Below are positions 11,478 through 27,355 of a stretch of DNA of 64,000 nt, in pieces. The DNA is from Natrinema saccharevitans (lineage in GTDB: Archaea > Halobacteriota > Halobacteria > Halobacteriales > Natrialbaceae), in assembly GCF_001953745.1 (NCBI RefSeq), contig NZ_LWLN01000001.1, forward strand, positions 62,001-126,000. Direction: 5' to 3'. Numbering within the stretch: position 1 is the first letter of the stretch; each line of letters starts with the position of its first letter. The notes beneath the pieces were generated by a model. That model worked only from the letters and a program-made list of their open reading frames with translations, did no database searches and had not been told where the DNA came from. The translations under genes and the position numbers were made by a program.

Positions 11478-11708
11478 TCACTCCTCGTCGTCGGCCGACT
11501 CCGCTTCCTCGGCTGACTCTGCTTCCTCGGTCGACTCCGCTTCTTCGTCTCCCTCGCCCTCGACCTCGATCTCCGCTTCGACCTCGATCGATAGTCCGTC
11601 GGCCTCGAGTTCGCCCTCGAACTCGCGTTCGTCGCCGACCTCGATCTCGAGTTCGTTCGAGTCCACTTCGACTTCGACCTCGACGTCGACGGTGACTTCG
11701 TTGTCCAT
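11478..11708 (-). CDS. very acidic, low-complexity small protein (76 aa)
   Basis: A 76-residue protein with no lysine and one arginine. The first half alternates acidic and aliphatic residues (VTVDVEVEVEVDSNELEIEV), a pattern that makes a two-faced beta strand. The second half becomes a repeat of EEAES units (about 55-72). Composition this extreme is unusual even for a haloarchaeon, but the start, the GC-rich third codon positions and the clean spacing (113 bases from the convergently facing Rieske gene start, 90 bases from the synthetase start) support a real gene. I know no family. It could be a soluble beta-rich protein with a disordered acidic tail. Confidence 0.6.
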   Translation of the reverse strand: MDNEVTVDVEVEVEVDSNELEIEVGDEREFEGELEADGLSIEVEAEIEVEGEGDEEAESTEEAESAEEAESADDEE

Positions 11709-15931: not shown

Positions 15932-17746
15932 TCAGGGCGCGTAGTAGTACTCGCCCTCGCTTTTCTGCTGGCGGTCCAGCTGGGACTCGGGCTTGTTGAT
16001 CCGCGGTCGGGACGTGCGCTCGTCGCGGCGGAACGTGACCTCGAGGTTCGCGAGGAACTCGTTCATGCCGTCGCGCATGGACTGGGGCTGGCCGGCACGA
16101 CCCTGAACGGCGGGCTCGCCGTCGAAGACCATCAGCCGGTCGGCGAGCAGGTCCATCATGTAGATGTCGTGGTCGATGACCAGCACGGTGGCGTCTTGCT
16201 GTTCGGCGTAGCGCCGGATCGCCTTCGTGGCCTGGACCCGCTGTTCGACGTCGAGGTGGGCCGAGGGTTCGTCGAGCAGGTAGAGGTCGGCCGAATCGGA
16301 GAGACAGGCCGCGATGGCGACCCGCTGGCGCTCCCCGCCCGAGAGATCCGAGAGGTTCTGCTCCATGATCCGCTCCAACTGTAGGGGCTGGGCGATCTCG
16401 GTGTTCCAGTACGAGGAGCCGAACTGGTCGGTGATCGACGAGAGGAACGCGTCGACCCGCATGTGCTGATCGATGGTGACGTACTGGGGCTTGTAGGAGA
16501 TGTCCAGATCGAGGTCGGCGTCGCCCTCGTCGGGCTCGAGGTTCCCTGTTAACAGTTTCGCGAAGGTCGACTTCCCGATCCCGTTGGGACCGACGACGCC
16601 CAGAACTTCGTTTTCCCGGATCGTGCCGCCCTCGACCTCGAGGGTGAACTCTCCGTCGCCGTAGCTCTTGGTGAGGTCGGGGTACTCGACGAGCGTATCG
16701 GCGCGGCTCACGCTCCTGGGCGCGTGTTCCTCGAACTCGATCGGGTTCGGTCGGATCCGCATGTTCTCGTTGTCGAGATAGCCCGAGAGGTACTCGTTGA
16801 TCCCGTTGCGGACGGACTTCGGCGAGGTGATGACCCCGTACGCGCCGGGCTCACCGTAGGCGACGTGGAGCGTGTCGGCCAGCAGGTCCAGGATCGCGAG
16901 GTCGTGTTCGATGACCAGCATCGACTTGTCCTCCTCCTCGGCGAGTTCCCGGATCAGCCGCGCTGCGGTCACGCGCTGACCGATGTCCAGATACGGCGTG
17001 ATCTCGTCTAAGAAGTAGAAGTCCGTGTCTCGAGCCAGCGTGGCCGCGATGGCCACCCGCTGGAGTTCCCCGCCCGAGAGGTCGTCGATCGACTGGTCCA
17101 TGACCGGTCCGATCTCGAGGCGCTCGACCAGCGAGTCGAGGGCACCGCGCTCGTCGGTTCGCTCCAGTAGCTCGCGGGTGTTGCCGTCGAAGCTGTTGGG
17201 GATCTGGTCGACGTACTGGGGCTTTCGCGAGATCGTCACGTCGCCGTCCCGGACGTCCGCGATGTAGTCCTGCAGTTCGGTCCCGCGGTAGGCTTCGAGT
17301 ACCTCGTCCCAGCCCGGCTCCTCCTCGTGGCGGCCCAGGTTGGGCTCGAGTTCGCCGGCCAGAATGCGGACGGCGGTGGTCTTCCCGATCCCGTTTGGCC
17401 CCAGAATACCGGTGACCCGCCCCTCCTGTGGGGCGGGCAGGCCGTACAGCGAGAAGGCGTTCTCGCCGTAGCGGTGAACGGGCTCGTCCTGCAGTTCCTG
17501 GGGGAGGTTGATGATCTCGATGGCGTCGAAGGGACATTTCTCGACGCAGATACCACAGGTCTCGCCCAGACAGATCTCCTCGGAGATGTGGATCTGTTCG
17601 GGCTGGCCCTCGGCGGCCTCCTCACCGCGGAGGGTAATACACTCCTTGCCGGTCCGGTTGGGCGGACAGTAGTTCTTGCACTCGTAGCCACAGCGATCGG
17701 GCTGGCACCGATCGAGGTCTACGACGGCGATGCTGTCGTCGGCCAT
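15932..17746 (-). CDS. ABCE1/RLI ribosome-recycling ATPase
   Basis: A 604-residue soluble twin-ATPase. The N-terminus carries two [4Fe-4S] ferredoxin-like cysteine sets, CQPDRCGYECKNYC with a further Cys at about 36, and CLGETCGICVEKCP (59-71). Two ABC domains follow, each with Walker A (GPNGIGKTTAV at about 116-126 and GPNGIGKSTFA), a signature (LSGGELQRV and LSGGERQRV) and DE-rich Walker B (YFLDEITPYLD and LLDEPSAHLD). This is the universally conserved archaeal/eukaryotic factor that splits 70S/80S ribosomes after termination. Its ATG is one base after the stop of the EMC6-like gene, so the two are clearly co-transcribed. Confidence 0.97.
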   Translation of the reverse strand: MADDSIAVVDLDRCQPDRCGYECKNYCPPNRTGKECITLRGEEAAEGQPEQIHISEEICLGETCGICVEKCPFDAIEIINLPQELQDEPVHRYGENAFSLYGLPAPQEGRVTGILGPNGIGKTTAVRILAGELEPNLGRHEEEPGWDEVLEAYRGTELQDYIADVRDGDVTISRKPQYVDQIPNSFDGNTRELLERTDERGALDSLVERLEIGPVMDQSIDDLSGGELQRVAIAATLARDTDFYFLDEITPYLDIGQRVTAARLIRELAEEEDKSMLVIEHDLAILDLLADTLHVAYGEPGAYGVITSPKSVRNGINEYLSGYLDNENMRIRPNPIEFEEHAPRSVSRADTLVEYPDLTKSYGDGEFTLEVEGGTIRENEVLGVVGPNGIGKSTFAKLLTGNLEPDEGDADLDLDISYKPQYVTIDQHMRVDAFLSSITDQFGSSYWNTEIAQPLQLERIMEQNLSDLSGGERQRVAIAACLSDSADLYLLDEPSAHLDVEQRVQATKAIRRYAEQQDATVLVIDHDIYMMDLLADRLMVFDGEPAVQGRAGQPQSMRDGMNEFLANLEVTFRRDERTSRPRINKPESQLDRQQKSEGEYYYAP

Positions 17747-17747
17747 G

Positions 17748-18065
17748 TTAGCCCGTGACCTCCGCAGTCAGCAGGATTCCCCACGTCACGAACCACAGCG
17801 AGAAGGTCATGAACGCGACGAAGAGGTAGTGTTTCGTCCCGAACTCGTCGTCGCCGTAGATCCCCGAGACGTTGATGACGACGTACTGGAAGAGGATCGC
17901 GCCGAGGACGAACGCGAGCGCCTGCGTATCCTGGGCCGCCTCGGCGGTGGTCCCGACCCAGGTGGTAGACGCAAGCGCCGCGCCGACGCCCAGCAACGCC
18001 GACATCGCGGTGACGCTGACCGAGCGAATGTGTTCGCGTCGGTCGCTGATCGATTCGGTCGACAT
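17748..18065 (-). CDS. EMC6-like membrane protein
   Basis: A 105-residue protein with three membrane segments (about 18-38, 48-68, 80-101) and a polar N-terminus (STESISDRREHIRS). The segments FVLGAILFQYVVINVSGIYG and YLFVAFMTFSLWFVTWGILL match what I recall of archaeal EMC6-like proteins, small partners in membrane-protein insertion that resemble a subunit of the eukaryotic ER membrane complex. The stop is followed by one base and then the RLI start codon, so it is the first gene of an EMC6-RLI operon. Linking a membrane insertion factor with ribosome recycling is a context observation, not proof of joint function. Confidence 0.75.
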   Translation of the reverse strand: MSTESISDRREHIRSVSVTAMSALLGVGAALASTTWVGTTAEAAQDTQALAFVLGAILFQYVVINVSGIYGDDEFGTKHYLFVAFMTFSLWFVTWGILLTAEVTG

Positions 18066-18241: not shown

Positions 18242-19330
18242 CTAGCAGTCATCTACGTACGACCCTGCTGTGTATCCCCCGTTAAACGCAACGTTACAAC
18301 CGGTGTAGATCGTTCCATCGACCGTCACATCGTCATTGAACGTGACTGAGTCTCCAACGTAGAGATCTCCCCCAACAGTAACCTCTTTGTTCAGTTTGCT
18401 GTTGTCTCCGATCGAGACGTCACCGCCAGCGCTGACTACTTTGTTTGCAGTGTAGTCGTCTCCTACGGTGAAGTCCCCTGTCGCGTTCACCTTTTTGTTC
18501 GTTTTACTGTTATTACCTAACGAAATATCCCCGCCAGCGTTGATCTCCTTGTTCACTTTGCTGTTATCGCCCATCGAGATGTCTCCACCAGCGGTGACCT
18601 TTCCGTTCGTCTTGCCGCCGTCGCCGATCGAAATATCGCCGCCGACGTTGACCTCTTTGTTCGCAGTGTAGCTACCCCCGGTAGTGAGGCTACCATCTGC
18701 CGTAACTCGACCGTTCGTCTTCCCGTTATCGCCGATCGAGACGTCCCCGCCAGCGGTGACTTCCTTGTTTGCCTTTCCGTTATCGCCGATAAACACGTTT
18801 TCATCGGTGTCGATCCCGTCGTTCGCTTTGCTGCCGTCTTCGACGACGACATCACCGTCGTTCGGTTCATCCGGAGGTCCGCCAGTGCACTCGTAGTCGA
18901 CCGTAACGGGTAATGTCGCTTGCTCGATTCGGAGTGACCCCCCGTCTCCAAACGCCTCGACGACGGTGAGAACGCCGGATTCACTTCCGCCTGTACCTCC
19001 GCCGTCACACGAAATTACGACTGCCGAACTCCCTCCCGCGGGTATCTCGCTTGGCAGTTCTCCCTCGACTCTCAGATCGGACCCCGTAGTATCGGCCAGC
19101 TCGAGTGTCAAATCTGTGCCGGCGTTGTTCCGAATCGAGACGGGAGCCTCGTCGTTCGGTCCATCCAGTGTCAACTGTGTCGAACTAACGCCGATCAACG
19201 CATTGCTACTGGCCGTACTGACACCAACCCCGCGATCCGCCGCCAGCGTACTGAACCCGAATACCGGGCCCGACAGTAGCACCGTTCCCGCGAGAATGAA
19301 CACGACCGCGAGTTTGCTGATCGAATTCAT
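18242..19330 (-). CDS. exported polymer-forming (bactofilin-like) beta-helix protein with DUF1102-like N-terminal module
   Basis: A 362-residue secreted protein. Residues 1-25 are a hydrophobic signal (LAVVFILAGTVLLSGPVFGF). Residues 26-150 begin FSTLAADRGVGVSTASSNAL, the same module that opens the other exported proteins of this locus, and contain two cysteines. From about 161 to 350 there are ten or so tandem 18-residue repeats of the type VSIGDNGKTNGRVTADGS, the Gly/Asn/Asp-turn pattern of a right-handed beta-helix as in bactofilins and polymer-forming proteins. It ends GGYTAGSYVDDC. I chose ATG 19330; an in-frame extension would read through the regulator gene. It starts two bases after the stop of the DUF7344 gene, so they form an operon. 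Likely role: self-assembling surface or matrix polymer (inferred). Confidence 0.8.
   Translation of the reverse strand: MNSISKLAVVFILAGTVLLSGPVFGFSTLAADRGVGVSTASSNALIGVSSTQLTLDGPNDEAPVSIRNNAGTDLTLELADTTGSDLRVEGELPSEIPAGGSSAVVISCDGGGTGGSESGVLTVVEAFGDGGSLRIEQATLPVTVDYECTGGPPDEPNDGDVVVEDGSKANDGIDTDENVFIGDNGKANKEVTAGGDVSIGDNGKTNGRVTADGSLTTGGSYTANKEVNVGGDISIGDGGKTNGKVTAGGDISMGDNSKVNKEINAGGDISLGNNSKTNKKVNATGDFTVGDDYTANKVVSAGGDVSIGDNSKLNKEVTVGGDLYVGDSVTFNDDVTVDGTIYTGCNVAFNGGYTAGSYVDDC
18281..18850 (-). repeat. about ten 54-bp coding tandem repeats
   Basis: The DNA encoding the beta-helix is a tandem array with a 54-bp period (18 codons). Units are diverged at synonymous and some non-synonymous positions but keep ISIGDN-like and NKEV-GGD-like cores. 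Tandem arrays of this sort can gain or lose whole units, which would change filament length without breaking the frame. Confidence 0.8.
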
Positions 19331-19332
19331 AG

Positions 19333-19905
19333 TCACGGCGGTCGTTCCATCTCGCCGAGTCGCATCCGCCGCGTCTGTGTCACGTGGACGATTGCCGACG
19401 CGGCAAACAGCGCGAATACCAGCGTCGCCCATCCCAGCTTCGGGATCGGTTCCGTCGGCACGACCTCGAGCCACAACCCAGCTATCACGACCGCACCGAC
19501 TGCCGACAGGCCTAGATAGTAGACGCCCCACGGGACCGAATCGCCCGGGACGATGTCCAGATAGACGTCCAACTCGGCGGCCTCGTCGGTGAGTTCGATC
19601 GTCCGATCGTCGAACTCGATGACGTCTGCCCGCTCGAGCGTCGGGAGGTGTGTCTGCTGCAGCGAGGTGTAGACCCGCTTTCGCTCGGCGGAGGTGATCT
19701 CCTCGACCTCTTTCTCGAGTTCCCAGGCGGCGACGTGTTCGGCGAGATCGCCCAGCGTGACGGGACCGTCTTCGCGCTTGCAGTAGTGGATGGTGTACCG
19801 TCGGCGCCGGTTGCTCAGGAGGTCGAATATTTCCCCTTCCCTCGATTGCTCGTCGCGGCCCGCCGGATCCGTTTGGGCCGGTTGGCTTTCGCTACTCGTC
19901 GCCAT
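19333..19905 (-). CDS. DUF7344-type winged-helix regulator with two membrane segments
   Basis: A 190-residue protein. Residues about 24-110 form a winged helix that starts with IFDLLSNRRRRYTIHYCKRE, the hallmark of the haloarchaeal DUF7344 group, with the recognition region near LGDLAEHVAAWELEK and a wing around LERADVIEFDDRTIEL. Two hydrophobic helices follow at about 126-148 and 154-175, so it is a membrane-tethered DNA-binding protein. It is two bases upstream of the beta-helix gene and thus probably controls, or is co-expressed with, the exported proteins. DUF7344 proteins recur next to such exported-protein loci in haloarchaea, from memory; the signal it senses is unknown. Confidence 0.82.
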   Translation of the reverse strand: MATSSESQPAQTDPAGRDEQSREGEIFDLLSNRRRRYTIHYCKREDGPVTLGDLAEHVAAWELEKEVEEITSAERKRVYTSLQQTHLPTLERADVIEFDDRTIELTDEAAELDVYLDIVPGDSVPWGVYYLGLSAVGAVVIAGLWLEVVPTEPIPKLGWATLVFALFAASAIVHVTQTRRMRLGEMERPP

Positions 19906-20321: not shown

Positions 20322-20885
20322 TTAGTCCGGAACGCACTCGACGTCGATCTCTCGCTCGAGGCCGACCGTGACGGTGCCGTCGCTGAACACGCCGTCCACA
20401 ATGATTGTCCCGGATTGCTGTTGTTGATCGCCGAATCCCCAGTCCCCCTCTGCAGGACAGCTAAAGTCCCCGAGTACGATGCGAATCCCGTTAGGAGTTT
20501 GATCGTATCGTACTCCGTTTCTGCGAGTCATATCGGGTCCTTGGAAATTAACGGACAACGTTTCCATAGTTAATTCGCCAGATGGTGCGTTATCTTCTAA
20601 CAAAACTGCTTTTCTGTCGTTGTACCGGTAAGAACTGCACCCTCCGAATAGACAGAAACCGCCACCGTTGCTGTCCCCGCTTTCCAGCGTGACCGTCCTG
20701 TCTGAGGTCGAATAATTGAGGCCGAGCAGGGCATCGTCGTCACTGGCCGTTTCGATCTCAACCCCGCGGTCGGCGAGCGTCGCGTCGAACGCGCCGCTCG
20801 AGACGGCGACCAAGATCGCCCCGCTGATGATCAACCCGACACCGAGATAGATGCTCCATCGCATGGTCGTGGGTTTCGAACGCAA
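20322..20885 (-). CDS. exported protein with the shared GAF...ADRGV module (DUF1102-like)
   Basis: A 187-residue protein that starts MRSKPTTMRWSIYLGVGLII, a positively charged signal followed by a hydrophobic segment (about 10-30), then SGAFDATLADRGVEIETASD, which is the same junction found in the beta-helix protein and, in the form GAFSSVEAERTVTVETAGD, in the three plus-strand exported proteins. The mature part is about 155 residues and beta-rich with four Cys (FCLFGGCSS, FSCPAEG, VECVPD), so disulfides are possible outside the cell. There is no twin arginine here, in contrast to the plus-strand paralogues. A start at MRWSIYL (20864) is equally possible. Role inferred from context: minor subunit or regulator of the fibre. 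Confidence 0.7.
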   Translation of the reverse strand: MRSKPTTMRWSIYLGVGLIISGAILVAVSSGAFDATLADRGVEIETASDDDALLGLNYSTSDRTVTLESGDSNGGGFCLFGGCSSYRYNDRKAVLLEDNAPSGELTMETLSVNFQGPDMTRRNGVRYDQTPNGIRIVLGDFSCPAEGDWGFGDQQQQSGTIIVDGVFSDGTVTVGLEREIDVECVPD

Positions 20886-21394: not shown

Positions 21395-22027
21395 ATGAGA
21401 TTGAATCGACGCAACGTGTTGCTCGGATTGGGTACGATCGTCGCCGGCGGCGGTGCTGCACTAGGAACAGGCGCGTTCAGTAGCGTGGAAGCCGAACGGA
21501 CGGTTACCGTCGAGACTGCTGGTGACGCAAGCGCGTTCCTTGGCCTCGACGCAGATGATGCGTACGATGTCGGTACTGATACGGTCCAACTCAACCTCGG
21601 GTCCGGCGGGAACGATGCCGACGGGAGCGGCCTCAATATCGACGCCAAAACAAGCTGGGAACCGATGCTTGCCGTCCAGAACAACGGAACGCAGAAGGTA
21701 ACGGAGCTAGAGTTCAGCTACGATGTCGCCAATAATGACGGGAGCGGCAATACCTTTAGCCGAGTCGAGGTCGGCAGTGTAACAGCCGATAGTAATGAAA
21801 TCGGAATCGAATTTCAGTACCGTGGCGATCACTCCTTCGGGAGTACCGATGGGTTCGAGCATGGGAGTTCCGAGTCGTCGAAAAGCAACGAGCCGACTTC
21901 CGGAAATCCATTGAACACTACCAATATTGCTGCTTACGATCTCGTCATCGATACGCGTGGAAGCAACGTCGACTCGAGTACGTCACTCGACGTGACCGTG
22001 ACGATCACCGCGTCGACCGAAACGTAA
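21395..22027 (+). CDS. exported protein A, twin-arginine/SipW-type signal (DUF1102-like)
   Basis: A 210-residue protein. The start MRLNRRNVLLGLGTIVAGGG is a twin-arginine signal; the hydrophobic core leads to GTGAFSSVEAERTVTVETAG, where VEA-like residues offer a signal-peptidase site. The mature domain (about 40-210) is beta-rich and acidic, with Gly/Ser/Asn-rich loops (GSSESSKSNEPTSGNPLN) and ends in alternating DVTVTITAS. The next gene begins at the final base of its stop (TAATG overlap), so translation is coupled. Preceded by the 16-base element. Inferred role: structural subunit of an extracellular fibre; a TasA-type fold is a guess that structure prediction could test. Confidence 0.78.
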   Translation: MRLNRRNVLLGLGTIVAGGGAALGTGAFSSVEAERTVTVETAGDASAFLGLDADDAYDVGTDTVQLNLGSGGNDADGSGLNIDAKTSWEPMLAVQNNGTQKVTELEFSYDVANNDGSGNTFSRVEVGSVTADSNEIGIEFQYRGDHSFGSTDGFEHGSSESSKSNEPTSGNPLNTTNIAAYDLVIDTRGSNVDSSTSLDVTVTITASTET

Positions 22028-22590
22028 TGAAAAGACGAAACGTCGTACTCGGCCTCGGGACGATCGTTGCGGGCGGGGGTGCCGCGCTCGGAACGGGCGC
22101 GTTCAGCAGCGTGGAAGCCGAGCGGACGGTTACCGTGGAAACCGCCGGCGACGCGAACGCGTTTCTCGCACTCACGCCGGCAAGCGGCGCAAGCGAGTAC
22201 GTCGACGATAGCGGAGACACAATCGAAATCGACATCACCGGCAACTCGGAGGGCGCAGATGGTATCAACCAGAACGCCCTCACATCGTTCGACGAACTCG
22301 TCACCGTCACGAATCAGGGGACGAACGACGTCAATAGTATCACGCTCACGATCCAGGGGGACAACGGCGAGGACGAGCTCCTGACGCCGACCCCGACGAG
22401 TTTCGGTGATGGCGATTTCCCCGATAACGGTAATGCGTCCGCGTTAGCGCCCGGCGAGGCGGTCTCGTTCGGCCTCGACATCGAACTTCGCGCGGACCAG
22501 ATCGACGACACCGTGGCCGCATACGACAACGGCGATATCGACAGCGCCAATTTCGAGCCGGCGATTCTGATCGACGCGACGGCGGCGTGA
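22027..22590 (+). CDS. exported protein B, twin-arginine/SipW-type signal (DUF1102-like)
   Basis: A 187-residue paralogue of protein A. The first 45 residues (MKRRNVVLGLGTIVAGGGAA and GTGAFSSVEAERTVTVETAG) are nearly identical to those of A, while the mature domains have diverged, with strands such as ELVTVTNQGTNDVNSITLTI and ALAPGEAVSFGLDIELRADQ. It starts at base 22027, overlapping the stop of A by one base. After it comes a 280-base gap that carries the second copy of the 16-base element. Identity limited to the signal module suggests selection for one export and processing route, with different mature subunits. Confidence 0.78.
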   Translation: MKRRNVVLGLGTIVAGGGAALGTGAFSSVEAERTVTVETAGDANAFLALTPASGASEYVDDSGDTIEIDITGNSEGADGINQNALTSFDELVTVTNQGTNDVNSITLTIQGDNGEDELLTPTPTSFGDGDFPDNGNASALAPGEAVSFGLDIELRADQIDDTVAAYDNGDIDSANFEPAILIDATAA

Positions 22591-22871: not shown

Positions 22872-23471
22872 ATGTCAATGAACAGACGAAACGTGTTGCT
22901 CGGACTCGGAACGATCGTCGCCGGCGGTGGCGCTGCGCTCGGCTCGGGCGCGTTCAGCCAGGCGGAAGCACAGCGGTCGGTTAGCGTTTCCCTCGAGGGT
23001 GACTCGAGCGGATTACTCCGGCCCACTGTTAACGACGGTGACTACGAGGGAGTCGACAGCACTACCACGACAGAAAGCGACAATGGGAGCGTCAGCGTCA
23101 CGCAGATCAATTTCGTCGGTATCAACGACGAATCCGTGTTCGCTTTCGATGACGTTCTAACGATTGGCCTCCAAGATGAAACTGGCAACGAAGTCAGTGG
23201 GACCTTCGATATCAGTATCTCCACTGATTCTGGTAGTGTCGCAGTCTACGGGGATAGCTTCCCCACTGATGGACCTCGTGGCGACGTGACGGATGCCGAA
23301 CTCGGAACAATCTCCGCTAGTGACTCCGGCTCAGCTACAGACGGTTCAAGCGTTTCCGCTGGTATTGCTATCAACACGAATTCAACTAACAGTGATGATC
23401 GATTCGATGGTACACTGAATGAGGATAGTACCGCCGATATAACTATCACTGCTCAGCAGCAGGACTCCTGA
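22872..23471 (+). CDS. exported protein C, twin-arginine/SipW-type signal (DUF1102-like)
   Basis: A 199-residue third paralogue, beginning MSMNRRNVLLGLGTIVAGGG and GSGAFSQAEAQRSVSVSLEG. The mature domain is again beta-rich and very rich in Ser, Asp, Gly and Thr (for example GTFDISISTDSGSVAVYGDS). No cysteine is seen and there is no C-terminal anchor, so it should be released or assembled outside. It has its own upstream element, in contrast with A-B, which form one unit. The following CARDB gene starts 108 bases downstream. Confidence 0.78.
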   Translation: MSMNRRNVLLGLGTIVAGGGAALGSGAFSQAEAQRSVSVSLEGDSSGLLRPTVNDGDYEGVDSTTTTESDNGSVSVTQINFVGINDESVFAFDDVLTIGLQDETGNEVSGTFDISISTDSGSVAVYGDSFPTDGPRGDVTDAELGTISASDSGSATDGSSVSAGIAINTNSTNSDDRFDGTLNEDSTADITITAQQQDS

Positions 23472-23578: not shown

Positions 23579-24718
23579 ATGCTATCGTCACGAACGCTGC
23601 TCGTCATGGCCGCCGTCTGCTTTCTCTTTACGCTCGCGATTCCGACGGCGGCACTGACGGTCGGGGAAGACCGGACGTCGGACGAGGTCGTCCTCGAGCC
23701 GACGAGCAGCTACGCGGAACTCGACGGGTCGAACGAACTGGTCCTCGACTTCGACGGGTTCAACGGAAACACGGCGTTCGTGACTCGAGACGTGTTCACG
23801 ATCACGGTCGGCGAGGATGCCGACGATATCGAGTCGGTTTGGATCGAGCACGATGTCGAGGGCGTGGCCTTCTACGCGGACGGGAGCGAGATCACTCCGG
23901 AATCGCGACTCGAACTGTCCCCGGGCGACTCGCAGACCGTGGATGTTACCGTCGATACCCACGTCGCCAAATCGACGACCGAGACGTTCTCGGTCGTGGT
24001 CGAGTACGAGGGTGACGAAGTCGATGATGACAGTGGCAGCGACTCTTTCATCTACGGCTCGAGCCTGTCCGTCTCGTCGACGACCGTCGAGGCGGGCGAG
24101 ACGGTAACGGTCAACGCGACCTACCGAAACGACGGCGATGGATGGGGGACCGAGACGGCTCGGCTGACGGTCGATGGAACCGTCGTCGACCAGCGGACGG
24201 TCGCGCTCTCGGCGGGCGAAAAACAGACGGTCAGTTTCGAGCGCCGGATGGAGTGGCCCGGCACGTACGAGGTCGGTATCGAGGGGATCGGGCAGCAGTC
24301 GGTGACCGTCGAGGGGCCGCAAGTCGAGGTCTCGAGCGCCGCCGTTGCCGATACCACGATCACCGCCGGGGAGACCACGGACGTACAGACGACGGTCCGG
24401 AACCCGTCCGACGGGTCGCTCGAGCGCACGCTCGAGCTGTCGGTCGACGGGATCGTCGTCGATACCCGAACCGTCTCGATCCCCGCCGGCGGCGAGCGGA
24501 CGGTGGCCTTCCGGCGATCGTTCGACGAGCCGGGGACCTACGCGATCGCGGTCAGCGGCGTCGATGCGGGGACGGTGACGGTCGGGGAGCGGGCCGGATT
24601 CGACGTTCGGAACCGCGAGCTATCGCCTGCGACGACGGCGGCGCTCGCGCCGCCGGCGACGGCCGGATTGCTGTTCCTGGCGGTCGCCGCGAACCGGCGC
24701 TGGTCGTTCGTCCGGTAG
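23579..24718 (+). CDS. membrane-anchored exported protein with two CARDB-like domains
   Basis: A 379-residue protein. Residues 1-26 are a Sec signal (MLSSRTLLVMAAVCFLFTLA). Residues about 27-160 are a beta domain resembling the mature part of the small exported proteins (ELVLDFDGFNGNTAFVTRDV). Two Ig-like CARDB domains follow, about 165-250 (SVSSTTVEAGETVTVNATYR) and 252-335 (VADTTITAGETTDVQTTVRN), each ending in a FERRMEWPGTYEVGIEG-like strand pair. A hydrophobic helix near the C-terminus (about 350-370) and a basic tail (NRRWSFVR) would anchor it in the membrane. Likely the cell-bound base or adhesin of the fibre (inferred). It is followed by the signal peptidase gene. Confidence 0.75.
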   Translation: MLSSRTLLVMAAVCFLFTLAIPTAALTVGEDRTSDEVVLEPTSSYAELDGSNELVLDFDGFNGNTAFVTRDVFTITVGEDADDIESVWIEHDVEGVAFYADGSEITPESRLELSPGDSQTVDVTVDTHVAKSTTETFSVVVEYEGDEVDDDSGSDSFIYGSSLSVSSTTVEAGETVTVNATYRNDGDGWGTETARLTVDGTVVDQRTVALSAGEKQTVSFERRMEWPGTYEVGIEGIGQQSVTVEGPQVEVSSAAVADTTITAGETTDVQTTVRNPSDGSLERTLELSVDGIVVDTRTVSIPAGGERTVAFRRSFDEPGTYAIAVSGVDAGTVTVGERAGFDVRNRELSPATTAALAPPATAGLLFLAVAANRRWSFVR

Positions 24719-24829
24719 GTCGCGGACTCGAGCTGCCACCGGAGCGGTCCGGTGGCTCTCGCGAGTTTTATGCTCCAGCGGGCACATAGTGAACTCGAAC
24801 CGTCTGTCGCCTATGACAGTCACTCACCG

Positions 24830-26008
24830 ATGACAAACGCGACGCTCGTCACGCGGGGGCTCGGTGCCCTCCTCGCGCTGGTCGTAATCTTGCTGGTGGT
24901 CGGCCAGCTGCTGGGTCAGCCGATCCTGCTGGGCTACGTCGCGACCGGCAGCATGGAGCCGAAAATCGACGCCGGCGACGGCTTCGTCGCCGTGCCCAGC
25001 GTCGCCGCCGGCTCGGTCGAGGAAGGGGACGTGGTGGTATTTCAGGCGCGGGATCTCAACGGCGGCGGGCTGACGACCCACCGCGTCGTCGACGAGACCG
25101 AGGAGGGTTACGTCACGAAAGGGGACGCCAACCCCTTTACCGATCAGGACGGCGGCGAACCCCACGTCACGGAGGGACAGATCGTCGCCAAAGCCCTGCA
25201 GATAAACGGCGCGGTCGTGACGATCCCGTATCTGGGCACCGCGATCATGGGGTTCCAGAGCGCTGCGCAGGGAAGCGTCGAGACGGTCACGTCGGTGTTC
25301 GGCGTGACCAGCGGCTCCTCGAACGGGCTCGGTGCCTTGCTGGTCGGGGTCGGGGTCGCGATGCTCGGGTTCGGGACCCTCCTCGAGCGGCTCGGACCGG
25401 GTCGCCGCGAGACGAGTCGGTCCCGTTCGCGGGAGAACGTGATCGCGTTCTGGACGGCGCTGGGACTCGTCTTGCTCGTGTTCGTGATCTTCGCGACTGC
25501 GGCGATGGTCGTCCCGTCTGGCACCACCGAGTACGGTCTCATCAGTTCCGAGTCGCCCACCGACGATCCACAGATCGTTGCGCCCGGCGAAACGGCGGAA
25601 CTGACACGGACGGTCGACAACGCCGGCTATCTGCCGATCGTGGTGGCTCACGAGGCAGAAAGCGGCGGTATCGGCGTCGAGCCGCGGTCTCGGACGATCG
25701 GGATTCGTGACAGTGGGGAGGCGACGGTGACGCTGTCGGCCCCCGAGCAGACGGGCGAGTACACGCGCCATCTCGGCGAGTACCGGTATCTCGCCGTGTT
25801 GCCCCCGTCGGTGCTGCTCTGGCTCCACGACATCCACCCGCTTGCCGCTATCGGGGCGGTCAACGCCGTCATCGTCTCGGTCGCGGTCGCGATCGTTCTC
25901 CTGCTGTTCGGTAGCGGCGATATCCGGGTCCGGTCCGCAGGGGGTCACGTCCCCCTCTCGACTCGCATTCAGCGTCGCGCTCGGCGCTGGTTCCGTGATC
26001 GGAAATAA
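24830..26008 (+). CDS. signal peptidase I (ER/SipW type, S26B) with extra membrane and outer beta domain
   Basis: A 392-residue enzyme. The catalytic part (1-150) has a membrane anchor (about 10-35), the nucleophile Ser41 in TGSMEPKI and His84 in TTHRVVD in place of the bacterial Lys, which is the Ser-His dyad of archaeal, ER and SipW-like peptidases; TKGDANPFTD holds the conserved Asp box. Unusually, the protein then continues with two membrane helices (about 166-186 and 205-227), a beta-domain outside (VAPGETAELTRTVDNAGYLP) and two more helices (about 318-350). The start at ATG 24830 skips 26 upstream codons. It sits directly after the exported genes, so the small proteins are the likely substrates. 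Confidence 0.88.
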   Translation: MTNATLVTRGLGALLALVVILLVVGQLLGQPILLGYVATGSMEPKIDAGDGFVAVPSVAAGSVEEGDVVVFQARDLNGGGLTTHRVVDETEEGYVTKGDANPFTDQDGGEPHVTEGQIVAKALQINGAVVTIPYLGTAIMGFQSAAQGSVETVTSVFGVTSGSSNGLGALLVGVGVAMLGFGTLLERLGPGRRETSRSRSRENVIAFWTALGLVLLVFVIFATAAMVVPSGTTEYGLISSESPTDDPQIVAPGETAELTRTVDNAGYLPIVVAHEAESGGIGVEPRSRTIGIRDSGEATVTLSAPEQTGEYTRHLGEYRYLAVLPPSVLLWLHDIHPLAAIGAVNAVIVSVAVAIVLLLFGSGDIRVRSAGGHVPLSTRIQRRARRWFRDRK

Positions 26009-26170: not shown

Positions 26171-27355
26171 ATGATCGATAACCCGCGTCTCGAGTTGCTG
26201 TTGGCCAAGCGCGGTCGGACCATCGTGATCGCACTGATCGCGATCGGCGTCCTGTCGATCGCCGCGACGGGGTGGGCCGTCGCCAACCCGGAAACGACGA
26301 CCGCCCCGCAGTACACCGAGGAACGCGTGACGGTCGAGGGAAGTACCAGCGCCGTCGTCACCGAGAGCGGAACGCTCTGGCCGGAGGGCCAGCGGCTCTC
26401 GGACAGTTCCGTCTACCTGCTGAACGCGACGCCGGAGCTGACTGTCGAGGCCGAAACGCGGTTGCGAAACGAGACCGGCGGGACGCCCGTCGAGGACGGG
26501 GACGTGACCCACGAGGTCTCGATGCGTTTCCAGGCGACCCGTGACGGGTCCCCCTTCTGGAACGACACCACGACGGTACTGCGCGAGTCGCCCTCGGTCG
26601 AGAACGGCGTCGCCACGTCGAACGCGACGATCGACGTCGAATCTTACCGCCGACAACAGCGGCAACTCGAGCGCGAACTCGGCGGGATCGGGACGGTCGA
26701 ACTTGCAGCGGTGCTTCACACCGAGTACGACACCGGCACCCATCAGGGGACGCTCACGACCACCGCGCCGATGGAGATCACCGACGAGGCCTACTGGCTC
26801 GAGGGCGAACTGTCGGAGTCGACGCCACACCGCTACCGCAGCGGGACCGAGCGGACGACCACGTCCAGAAGTCCGGCGCTGATCGGCGGCCTGTCGCTGC
26901 TGGGGACGCTGTCGCTCGCCGGCGCGGCACTGGTCGTGCGCCGGTCGCCGGGCGATCTCGAGGCCGCTCGCCGGGCGCTCCACGAACAGCGCTACGCCGA
27001 GTGGATCTCGCGGGGCTCGATCCCGATGTGGATCGGCGACTACCACGTCTCGCTCGATACGCTCGAGGACGTCGTCGACGTCGCGATCGACACCAACGAG
27101 CGCGTCGTCCACGATACCCAGCGCGGGCTGTTCGCGGTCGTCAACGACGGCGTCGTCTACTACTACAGCGACCGCGGGCTCTGGGAGGAGACCGCGTGGC
27201 CCGAGATGGATCTGGAGGCGAATCCGGCCGTCATCGACGGCGACGGCGAACTCCCCACGACGGACCTGTCGGCACTCGACACGAGCAACGAGTTCGCTGC
27301 ACCCGACGATCCGGACGGGTTCGAGGACGACGAAGAGGTCTGGGAACAGCTCTGA
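26171..27355 (+). CDS. DUF5305 family membrane protein
   Basis: A 394-residue protein with one N-terminal helix (about 16-38, RTIVIALIAIGVLSIAATGW), an extracytoplasmic domain of about 200 residues (for example TEERVTVEGSTSAVVTESGT), a second helix at about 238-262 (LIGGLSLLGTLSLAGAALVV) and a cytoplasmic C-terminal domain of 130 residues (ARRALHEQRYAEWISRGSIP). This architecture is the DUF5305 family, which I associate with haloarchaeal SipW-type loci. The function is not known; a two-sided membrane protein could help assembly or sense the outside. Acidic, unstructured end (DGFEDDEEVWEQL). Confidence 0.8.
   Translation: MIDNPRLELLLAKRGRTIVIALIAIGVLSIAATGWAVANPETTTAPQYTEERVTVEGSTSAVVTESGTLWPEGQRLSDSSVYLLNATPELTVEAETRLRNETGGTPVEDGDVTHEVSMRFQATRDGSPFWNDTTTVLRESPSVENGVATSNATIDVESYRRQQRQLERELGGIGTVELAAVLHTEYDTGTHQGTLTTTAPMEITDEAYWLEGELSESTPHRYRSGTERTTTSRSPALIGGLSLLGTLSLAGAALVVRRSPGDLEAARRALHEQRYAEWISRGSIPMWIGDYHVSLDTLEDVVDVAIDTNERVVHDTQRGLFAVVNDGVVYYYSDRGLWEETAWPEMDLEANPAVIDGDGELPTTDLSALDTSNEFAAPDDPDGFEDDEEVWEQL

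Follow-up and report, generated by a model that had tools for sequence, protein, structure and literature searches.

The window analyzed here, a stretch of 64,000 nucleotides from Natrinema saccharevitans (contig NZ_LWLN01000001.1), carries on its minus strand an open reading frame of 362 codons, with an ATG at 19330 and a stop codon at 18242. The encoded protein, P0001, is predicted from its signal segment to be exported rather than cytoplasmic, as had been proposed in a preliminary description of this locus. It consists of an N-terminal part comprising the signal segment, a putative donor strand, and an Ig-like domain (together referred to as the N-module), followed by a beta-helix built from 18-residue units (Table 1). 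An alignment-based scan of genome contigs recovered relatives of P0001 in three named species, and a single-sequence scan of genome contigs found none. The orthologues in N. altunense, N. pallidum, and N. gari are 57 to 59% identical to P0001, with identical gene order.

Table 1. Features of P0001, its neighborhood, and other loci of the same genome (L numbers denote separate loci)
Feature	Position	Strand	Evidence or remark
ABC ATPase	15932-17746	-	Downstream of P0001
Small hydrophobic protein	17748-18065	-	Downstream of P0001
P0001, whole gene of 362-aa exported protein	18242-19330	-	N-module and 18-residue beta-helix
C-terminal turn and tail, including Cys345 and Cys362	18242-18298	-	Both Cys kept in three orthologues; may form a disulphide cap
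Eleven 18-residue beta-helix units, residues 153-350	18281-18874	-	Lag identity, AlphaFold2 model, unit alignment
Ig-like domain, residues ~46-150	18881-19195	-	Cys108 and Cys148 invariant; model shows a complete fold, PapD-like/MSP-like
Putative donor strand, residues 27-45, STLAADRGVGVSTASSNAL	19196-19252	-	Sequence conserved; residues 25-38 with pLDDT < 50 in monomer model
Signal segment, residues 1-26	19253-19330	-	Ends in conserved G25-F26, aligned with GAF of neighboring pilin-like proteins
DUF7344 winged-helix-type protein, putative regulator	19333-19905	-	DUF7344 E 2.3e-30; two C-terminal hydrophobic segments by eye
Small exported protein	20322-20864	-	Signal and first strand in common with P0001; weak TafE/TafC matches
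Pilin-like protein 1	21398-22027	+	TafE/TafA-like, below cut-off
Pilin-like protein 2	22027-22590	+	Matches chain C ('Pilin') of PDB 9p0a, phmmer E 5.9e-21
Pilin-like protein 3	22872-23471	+	Related to the pilin of PDB 9p0a
CARDB-domain protein	23579-24718	+	C-terminal hydrophobic segment
SipW/archaeal-type signal peptidase I	24752-26008	+	TIGR02228 61.0 bits, cut-off 51.85; start codon putative
DUF5305 protein	26171-27355	+	Fimbrial cluster member
Second SipW locus, same genome	L113:17-2516		Camelysin/TasA-family protein (PF12389), SipW-type peptidase, DUF7344 gene with hydrophobic C-terminal segments
Type IV pilin N-terminus with bactofilin-type repeats, same genome	L107:790-1779	+	Pilin_N above cut-off
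Type IV pilin N-terminus with bactofilin-type repeats, same genome	L109:1234-2196	-	Pilin_N above cut-off

The stop codon of the DUF7344 gene is located 2 bp before the P0001 ATG, and the two types of gene adjoin in most of the Natrialbaceae loci read; outside Natrialbaceae, the DUF7344 gene is often kilobases distant or encoded on the opposite strand. In the preliminary description, P0001 was directly coupled to a membrane-tethered regulator; the spacing of the genes and the two hydrophobic segments of the DUF7344 protein agree with this, but the regulatory role itself is one that we infer. The ABC ATPase on the other side of P0001 we take, from its sequence, to be ABCE1/RLI. Further downstream (11478 to 11708, minus strand), a strongly acidic short open reading frame of 76 amino acids with alternating V/E-D repeats contains an 18-bp tandem repeat (11480 to 11547) and may be either a gene or a chance product of GC-rich DNA.

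The more informative context, missed in the preliminary description, is a fimbrial gene cluster of TasA/pilin-like type that encodes a SipW-type peptidase of its own. Comprising the peptidase, a DUF5305 protein, a CARDB protein, and one to three small pilin homologues, this cluster is conserved among haloarchaea, with its gene order kept across Natrialbaceae and a rearranged form in other families. The pilin-like neighbors matched the 'Pilin' of PDB entry 9p0a in a profile comparison (E 1.3e-48), and their matches to the NCBIfam TafE and TafA models remained below cut-off. We examined 39 N-module loci in windows of 20 kb, some of which end before the cluster does, and counted DUF7344 genes in 31, pilin-like genes in 29, SipW-type peptidase genes in 27, and DUF5305 genes in 26. 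Around eight N-module loci (L036, L049, L087 to L089, and L091 to L093) contained no cluster genes in the sequence read, and the N-module is therefore not always clustered. The second SipW locus of the same genome, where a TasA-family gene and a DUF7344 gene are also present, supports the SipW/DUF7344 pairing as a type of system. Additionally, a second small gene pair (L118:1285-2481), arranged divergently, encodes a pilin-like protein and an N-module-like protein without a C-terminal domain.

Modeled on a 20-sequence alignment, the 152-residue N-module contains a helix (residues 3 to 19), a low-confidence stretch (residues 25 to 38; pLDDT < 50), and an Ig-like domain (residues 45 to 150; pLDDT ~80 to 94), and P22, G25, F26, R33, N68, C108, A126, and C148 were invariant in 20 N-modules. 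The earlier statement that P0001 starts with the same exported module as its small neighbors applies to the signal segment and the first strand: BLASTP aligned residues 1 to 48 with the protein encoded at 20322-20864 (E 2e-4), and hhalign aligned residues 1 to 55 with the three pilin-like proteins (encoded from 21398, 22027, and 22872; probability 95%, E 1.7e-8). In these same comparisons, however, the Ig part of P0001 was not detectably shared with the small neighbors. The profile alignment places F26 over the phenylalanine of the GAF motif in the pilin-like proteins, so that the conserved phenylalanine of G25-F26 takes the TasA-type P2' position of a predicted cleavage site. Against the NCBIfam TafC model (NF052521), the first 105 residues of P0001 scored 18.2 bits, below the cut-off of 410. 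The structures nearest to the Ig fold were pilus chaperones (Z 8 to 10), MSP, and ASH domains; judging from the model, the likeness to chaperones is that of a common fold, and the Ig domain of P0001 looks complete, as in TapA.

The remainder of P0001 is repetitive far beyond chance, with a self-identity of residues 151 to 362 of 0.40 at lag 18, 0.44 at lag 36, and 0.38 at lag 54, whereas 2000 shuffled versions, scanned at every lag from 5 to 60, never exceeded 0.20. The period of 18 residues is thus the one originally proposed. Whereas about ten 54-bp repeats had been described, the array comprises eleven units of exactly 18 residues each, from residue ~153 to 350 (typical unit, KEVTAGGDVSIGDNGKTN); at the DNA level these have diverged (pairwise identity of 0.37 to 0.80), which is why Tandem Repeats Finder reported no more than 3.4 copies of a 54-bp repeat (18483 to 18663). 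AlphaFold2, provided with a four-sequence alignment, predicted residues 161 to 350 to form the anticipated repetitive beta-helix, with strands of ~3 residues every six residues, i.e., three per 18 (pLDDT ~93). The top structural match of residues 159 to 362 was 3p4g, the beta-helical ice-binding domain of a Marinomonas adhesin (Z 13.8; rmsd 2.9 over 188 residues; 17% identity), and superposition suggests that the modeled helix has the same hand as parallel beta-helix proteins. A Foldseek search with the whole P0001 model listed matches to the Ig part alone, those to the helix emerging on realignment, and the absence of bactofilin, TasA, and 9p0a among the structural matches listed carries no weight. 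The rise of a beta-helix is ~0.48 nm per turn, and the predicted rod of 11 turns would be roughly 5 nm long. Two cysteines in the last turns, Cys345 and Cys362, are conserved in all three orthologues, are matched in the protein from locus L010, and may cap the C-terminal end of the helix. A reading of the repeats as a left-handed, hexapeptide-type sugar acyltransferase was rejected: matches to LpxD, GlmU, and NeuD were weak (E 1e-4 to 1e-2) and far below cut-offs, and the other domains of these enzymes are absent from P0001.

Bactofilins stack end to end through nonpolar polymerization of their core domain, and P0001 had been described as forming a bactofilin-like polymer. P0001 itself scored 13.2 bits against the Pfam Bactofilin model (PF04519), below the cut-off of 27.9, but relatives with the same type of N-module, from other Natrialbaceae and from other families of the order, exceed this threshold, namely, the proteins from L007 (92.8 bits, E 1.6e-26), L009 (84.7 bits, E 5.5e-24), and L043 (61.4 bits, E 1e-16), followed by those from L089 (E 1.4e-15), L008 (E 2.2e-9), and L012 (E 1.4e-8). 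At the sequence level, the helix of P0001 can be called bactofilin-type by way of this chain of relatives, rather than by direct family membership. Like bactofilins and halofilins, P0001 is predicted to have a regular beta-helix with ~18 residues per winding; canonical bactofilins, however, are cytoplasmic or bound to the inner membrane and have no signal peptide, whereas P0001 possesses a hydrophobic signal segment (helix 3 to 19), an Ig module, a probable Cys-capped end, and a helix of ~200 residues (11 turns) compared to ~100 for the bactofilin core. What stands of the earlier claim, then, is the bactofilin-type beta-helix; the polymer is unsupported, and the conserved pair Cys345 and Cys362, which may close the C-terminal end of the helix, is indirect evidence against stacking. 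Bactofilin-type folds outside archaeal cells are already known in kind: HalB of Haloferax volcanii reportedly resides on the outer cell surface, and two proteins of the N. saccharevitans genome (L107 and L109) combine a type IV pilin N-terminus with bactofilin-type repeats, one scoring above and one below the Bactofilin cut-off. One protein of this pair reached 29.3 bits for Pilin_N and 38.5 bits for Bactofilin; the pair shows a second export route for helices of the bactofilin type.

Of 391 genomes sampled from the class, 298 contain a match to a profile of the N-module. Among the 29 best full-length N-module proteins, the 18-residue repeat was present in 12 and absent from 17, and in a set of 30, Pfam recognized Bactofilin in 10, PKD in two, and, in one protein of 1458 residues, a concanavalin-like lectin together with a CarboxypepD_reg domain. 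The proteins from L068 and L077 consist of the N-module alone, and in L010 a related C-terminal helix (42% identity to that of P0001) is attached to the other type of N-module. In a further family of the order (L094, L096, L097, and L102), the N-module is followed by C-terminal repeats with a weak ~23-residue period, which look, from their sequences, like another beta-solenoid rather than the 18-residue helix; the L094 protein additionally gave weak Pfam beta-helix and hemagglutinin-like matches. Where a helix is present, a single chain contains between ~5 and 23 turns. The array had been suspected of changing length, and that of N. gari is indeed exactly one 18-amino-acid unit shorter than those of N. 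altunense and N. pallidum (one genome per species). Outer units 0, 1, 9, and 10 of P0001 are most similar to the N. altunense units at the same positions and inner units 2, 5, 6, and 8 to each other, a pattern that fits gain or loss of units in the middle of the array. In related species the rod is longer, shorter, or replaced, which points to a fimbrial tip or surface adhesin that can be swapped.

TasA, a SipW substrate, carries a phenylalanine at P2' (PMC10269814). In Bacillus subtilis, the unstructured N-terminus of TapA, nearly identical to that of TasA, precedes a complete Ig domain, and TapA starts the TasA filament (PMC10151520) by donating its N-terminal strand (PMC10151520, PMC9674648); the archaeal bundling pili of Pyrobaculum are donor-strand fibers of the TasA kind (PMC9674648). 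On balance, we favor the view that P0001 is an exported, probably low-copy part of a SipW-dependent TasA/Taf-like fimbria, serving as a TapA-like start or tip protein with a length-variable rod. The precursor would be exported and cut by the SipW-type peptidase of the locus just before G25-F26, upon which the freed, pilin-like N-terminal strand (residues ~26 to 45) would enter the groove of the first pilin. Since its own apparently complete Ig domain would accept no further strand, P0001 would be situated at one end of the filament, as TapA is for TasA, and the eleven-turn beta-helix would be displayed there, forming a stiff stalk or a surface for binding. Between species, the array changes by whole turns and the C-terminal domain is exchanged, as expected for an adhesive or recognition part. 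Control of expression probably falls to the membrane-bound DUF7344 protein encoded in the same operon. We propose, in short, that the constant N-module docks and the variable C-terminal part is displayed. More tentatively, and with somewhat more doubt than confidence on our side, the constant docking module of such end proteins in haloarchaeal fimbriae may be free to exchange its display domain, which here would be a bactofilin-derived helix acting as an extracellular molecular ruler in whole 18-residue turns, i.e., a cytoskeletal fold reused as a fimbrial stalk or adhesin.

No sequence match was found between P0001 and TapA, and the analogy is drawn from the common build and the N-terminal strand; both proteins go with a SipW-type peptidase at the locus and a strand resembling that of the filament subunit, and the Ig domain, complete in TapA, is predicted to be so in P0001, but TapA has no beta-helix and P0001 comes from an archaeal host. 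The relation to TasA and the Pyrobaculum bundling pili is likewise suggested by signal type and cluster rather than by a sequence match. The small neighbors of P0001 are homologous to the 9p0a pilin and match TafE and TafA, and P0001 weakly matches TafC; because every one of the Taf scores falls well short of its NCBIfam cut-off (410 for TafC, 155 for TafE), no gene of the locus is assigned to a Taf family.

The P0001 helix might instead stack end to end outside the cell and shape the envelope, as proposed for HalB, with the N-module serving for export alone. The Bactofilin scores of the relatives, the outer-surface location reported for HalB, and the pilin-bactofilin proteins of the same genome speak for such a surface scaffold, which we nevertheless consider unlikely: P0001 itself falls short of the Bactofilin cut-off, a folded Ig domain precedes its helix and two conserved cysteines occupy the C-terminal end, and a scaffold leaves unexplained that unrelated domains replace the C-terminal part while the pilus cluster stays. 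Even less probable, in our judgment, is that P0001 keeps its signal segment uncut and, as a membrane-anchored sensor with the helix outside, reports the state of the envelope or fimbria to the DUF7344 protein. The close and, in most Natrialbaceae loci read, preserved adjacency of the two genes would suit such a partnership, as would the hydrophobic segments of both proteins, but P0001 lacks a cytoplasmic domain for signaling, shares its G25-F26 region with pilins, and is often separated from DUF7344 genes outside Natrialbaceae.

The structural match to 3p4g raises the further idea of a solenoid that binds a ligand or surface, like the Ca2+-dependent ice-binding domain of Marinomonas, with P0001 free or cell bound and not part of a fimbria. 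While both are extracellular beta-helices of comparable length, the repeats of 3p4g are Ca2+ dependent; the sequence identity is low, repeat solenoids yield high Z values generically, and an RTX-type Ca2+ motif was not seen by eye in P0001. As the pilin-like N-terminus and the cluster favor a fimbria, we regard this last alternative as very improbable, and we retain the TapA-like end protein as the preferred reading.

The architecture of P0001 had been called undescribed, which was too strong for an extracellular bactofilin as such, given HalB and the two pilin-bactofilin fusions. Searches of open-licence papers for Taf proteins, haloarchaeal SipW fimbriae, and extracellular bactofilins yielded none on this architecture and, for Taf, none on the fimbrial proteins. 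The component parts are of known kinds; for a TapA-like module joined to a beta-helix that varies by turns within a fimbrial cluster, we found no description in these papers. If the favored reading is correct, P0001 would probably be the protein at the filament end of an archaeal fimbria that is widespread but little studied, TapA-like starters would be able to bear variable display domains, and the bactofilin-type fold would have a further case outside the cell. The homologues of ~5 to 23 turns provide a natural length series for tests. The longest relative (L089:9695-11836), of 713 amino acids, comprises no fewer than 23 turns in a single chain, and its array contains 17.8 copies of a 54-bp unit along with a higher-order unit of 162 bp, i.e., three turns, which makes expansion by blocks of turns probable.
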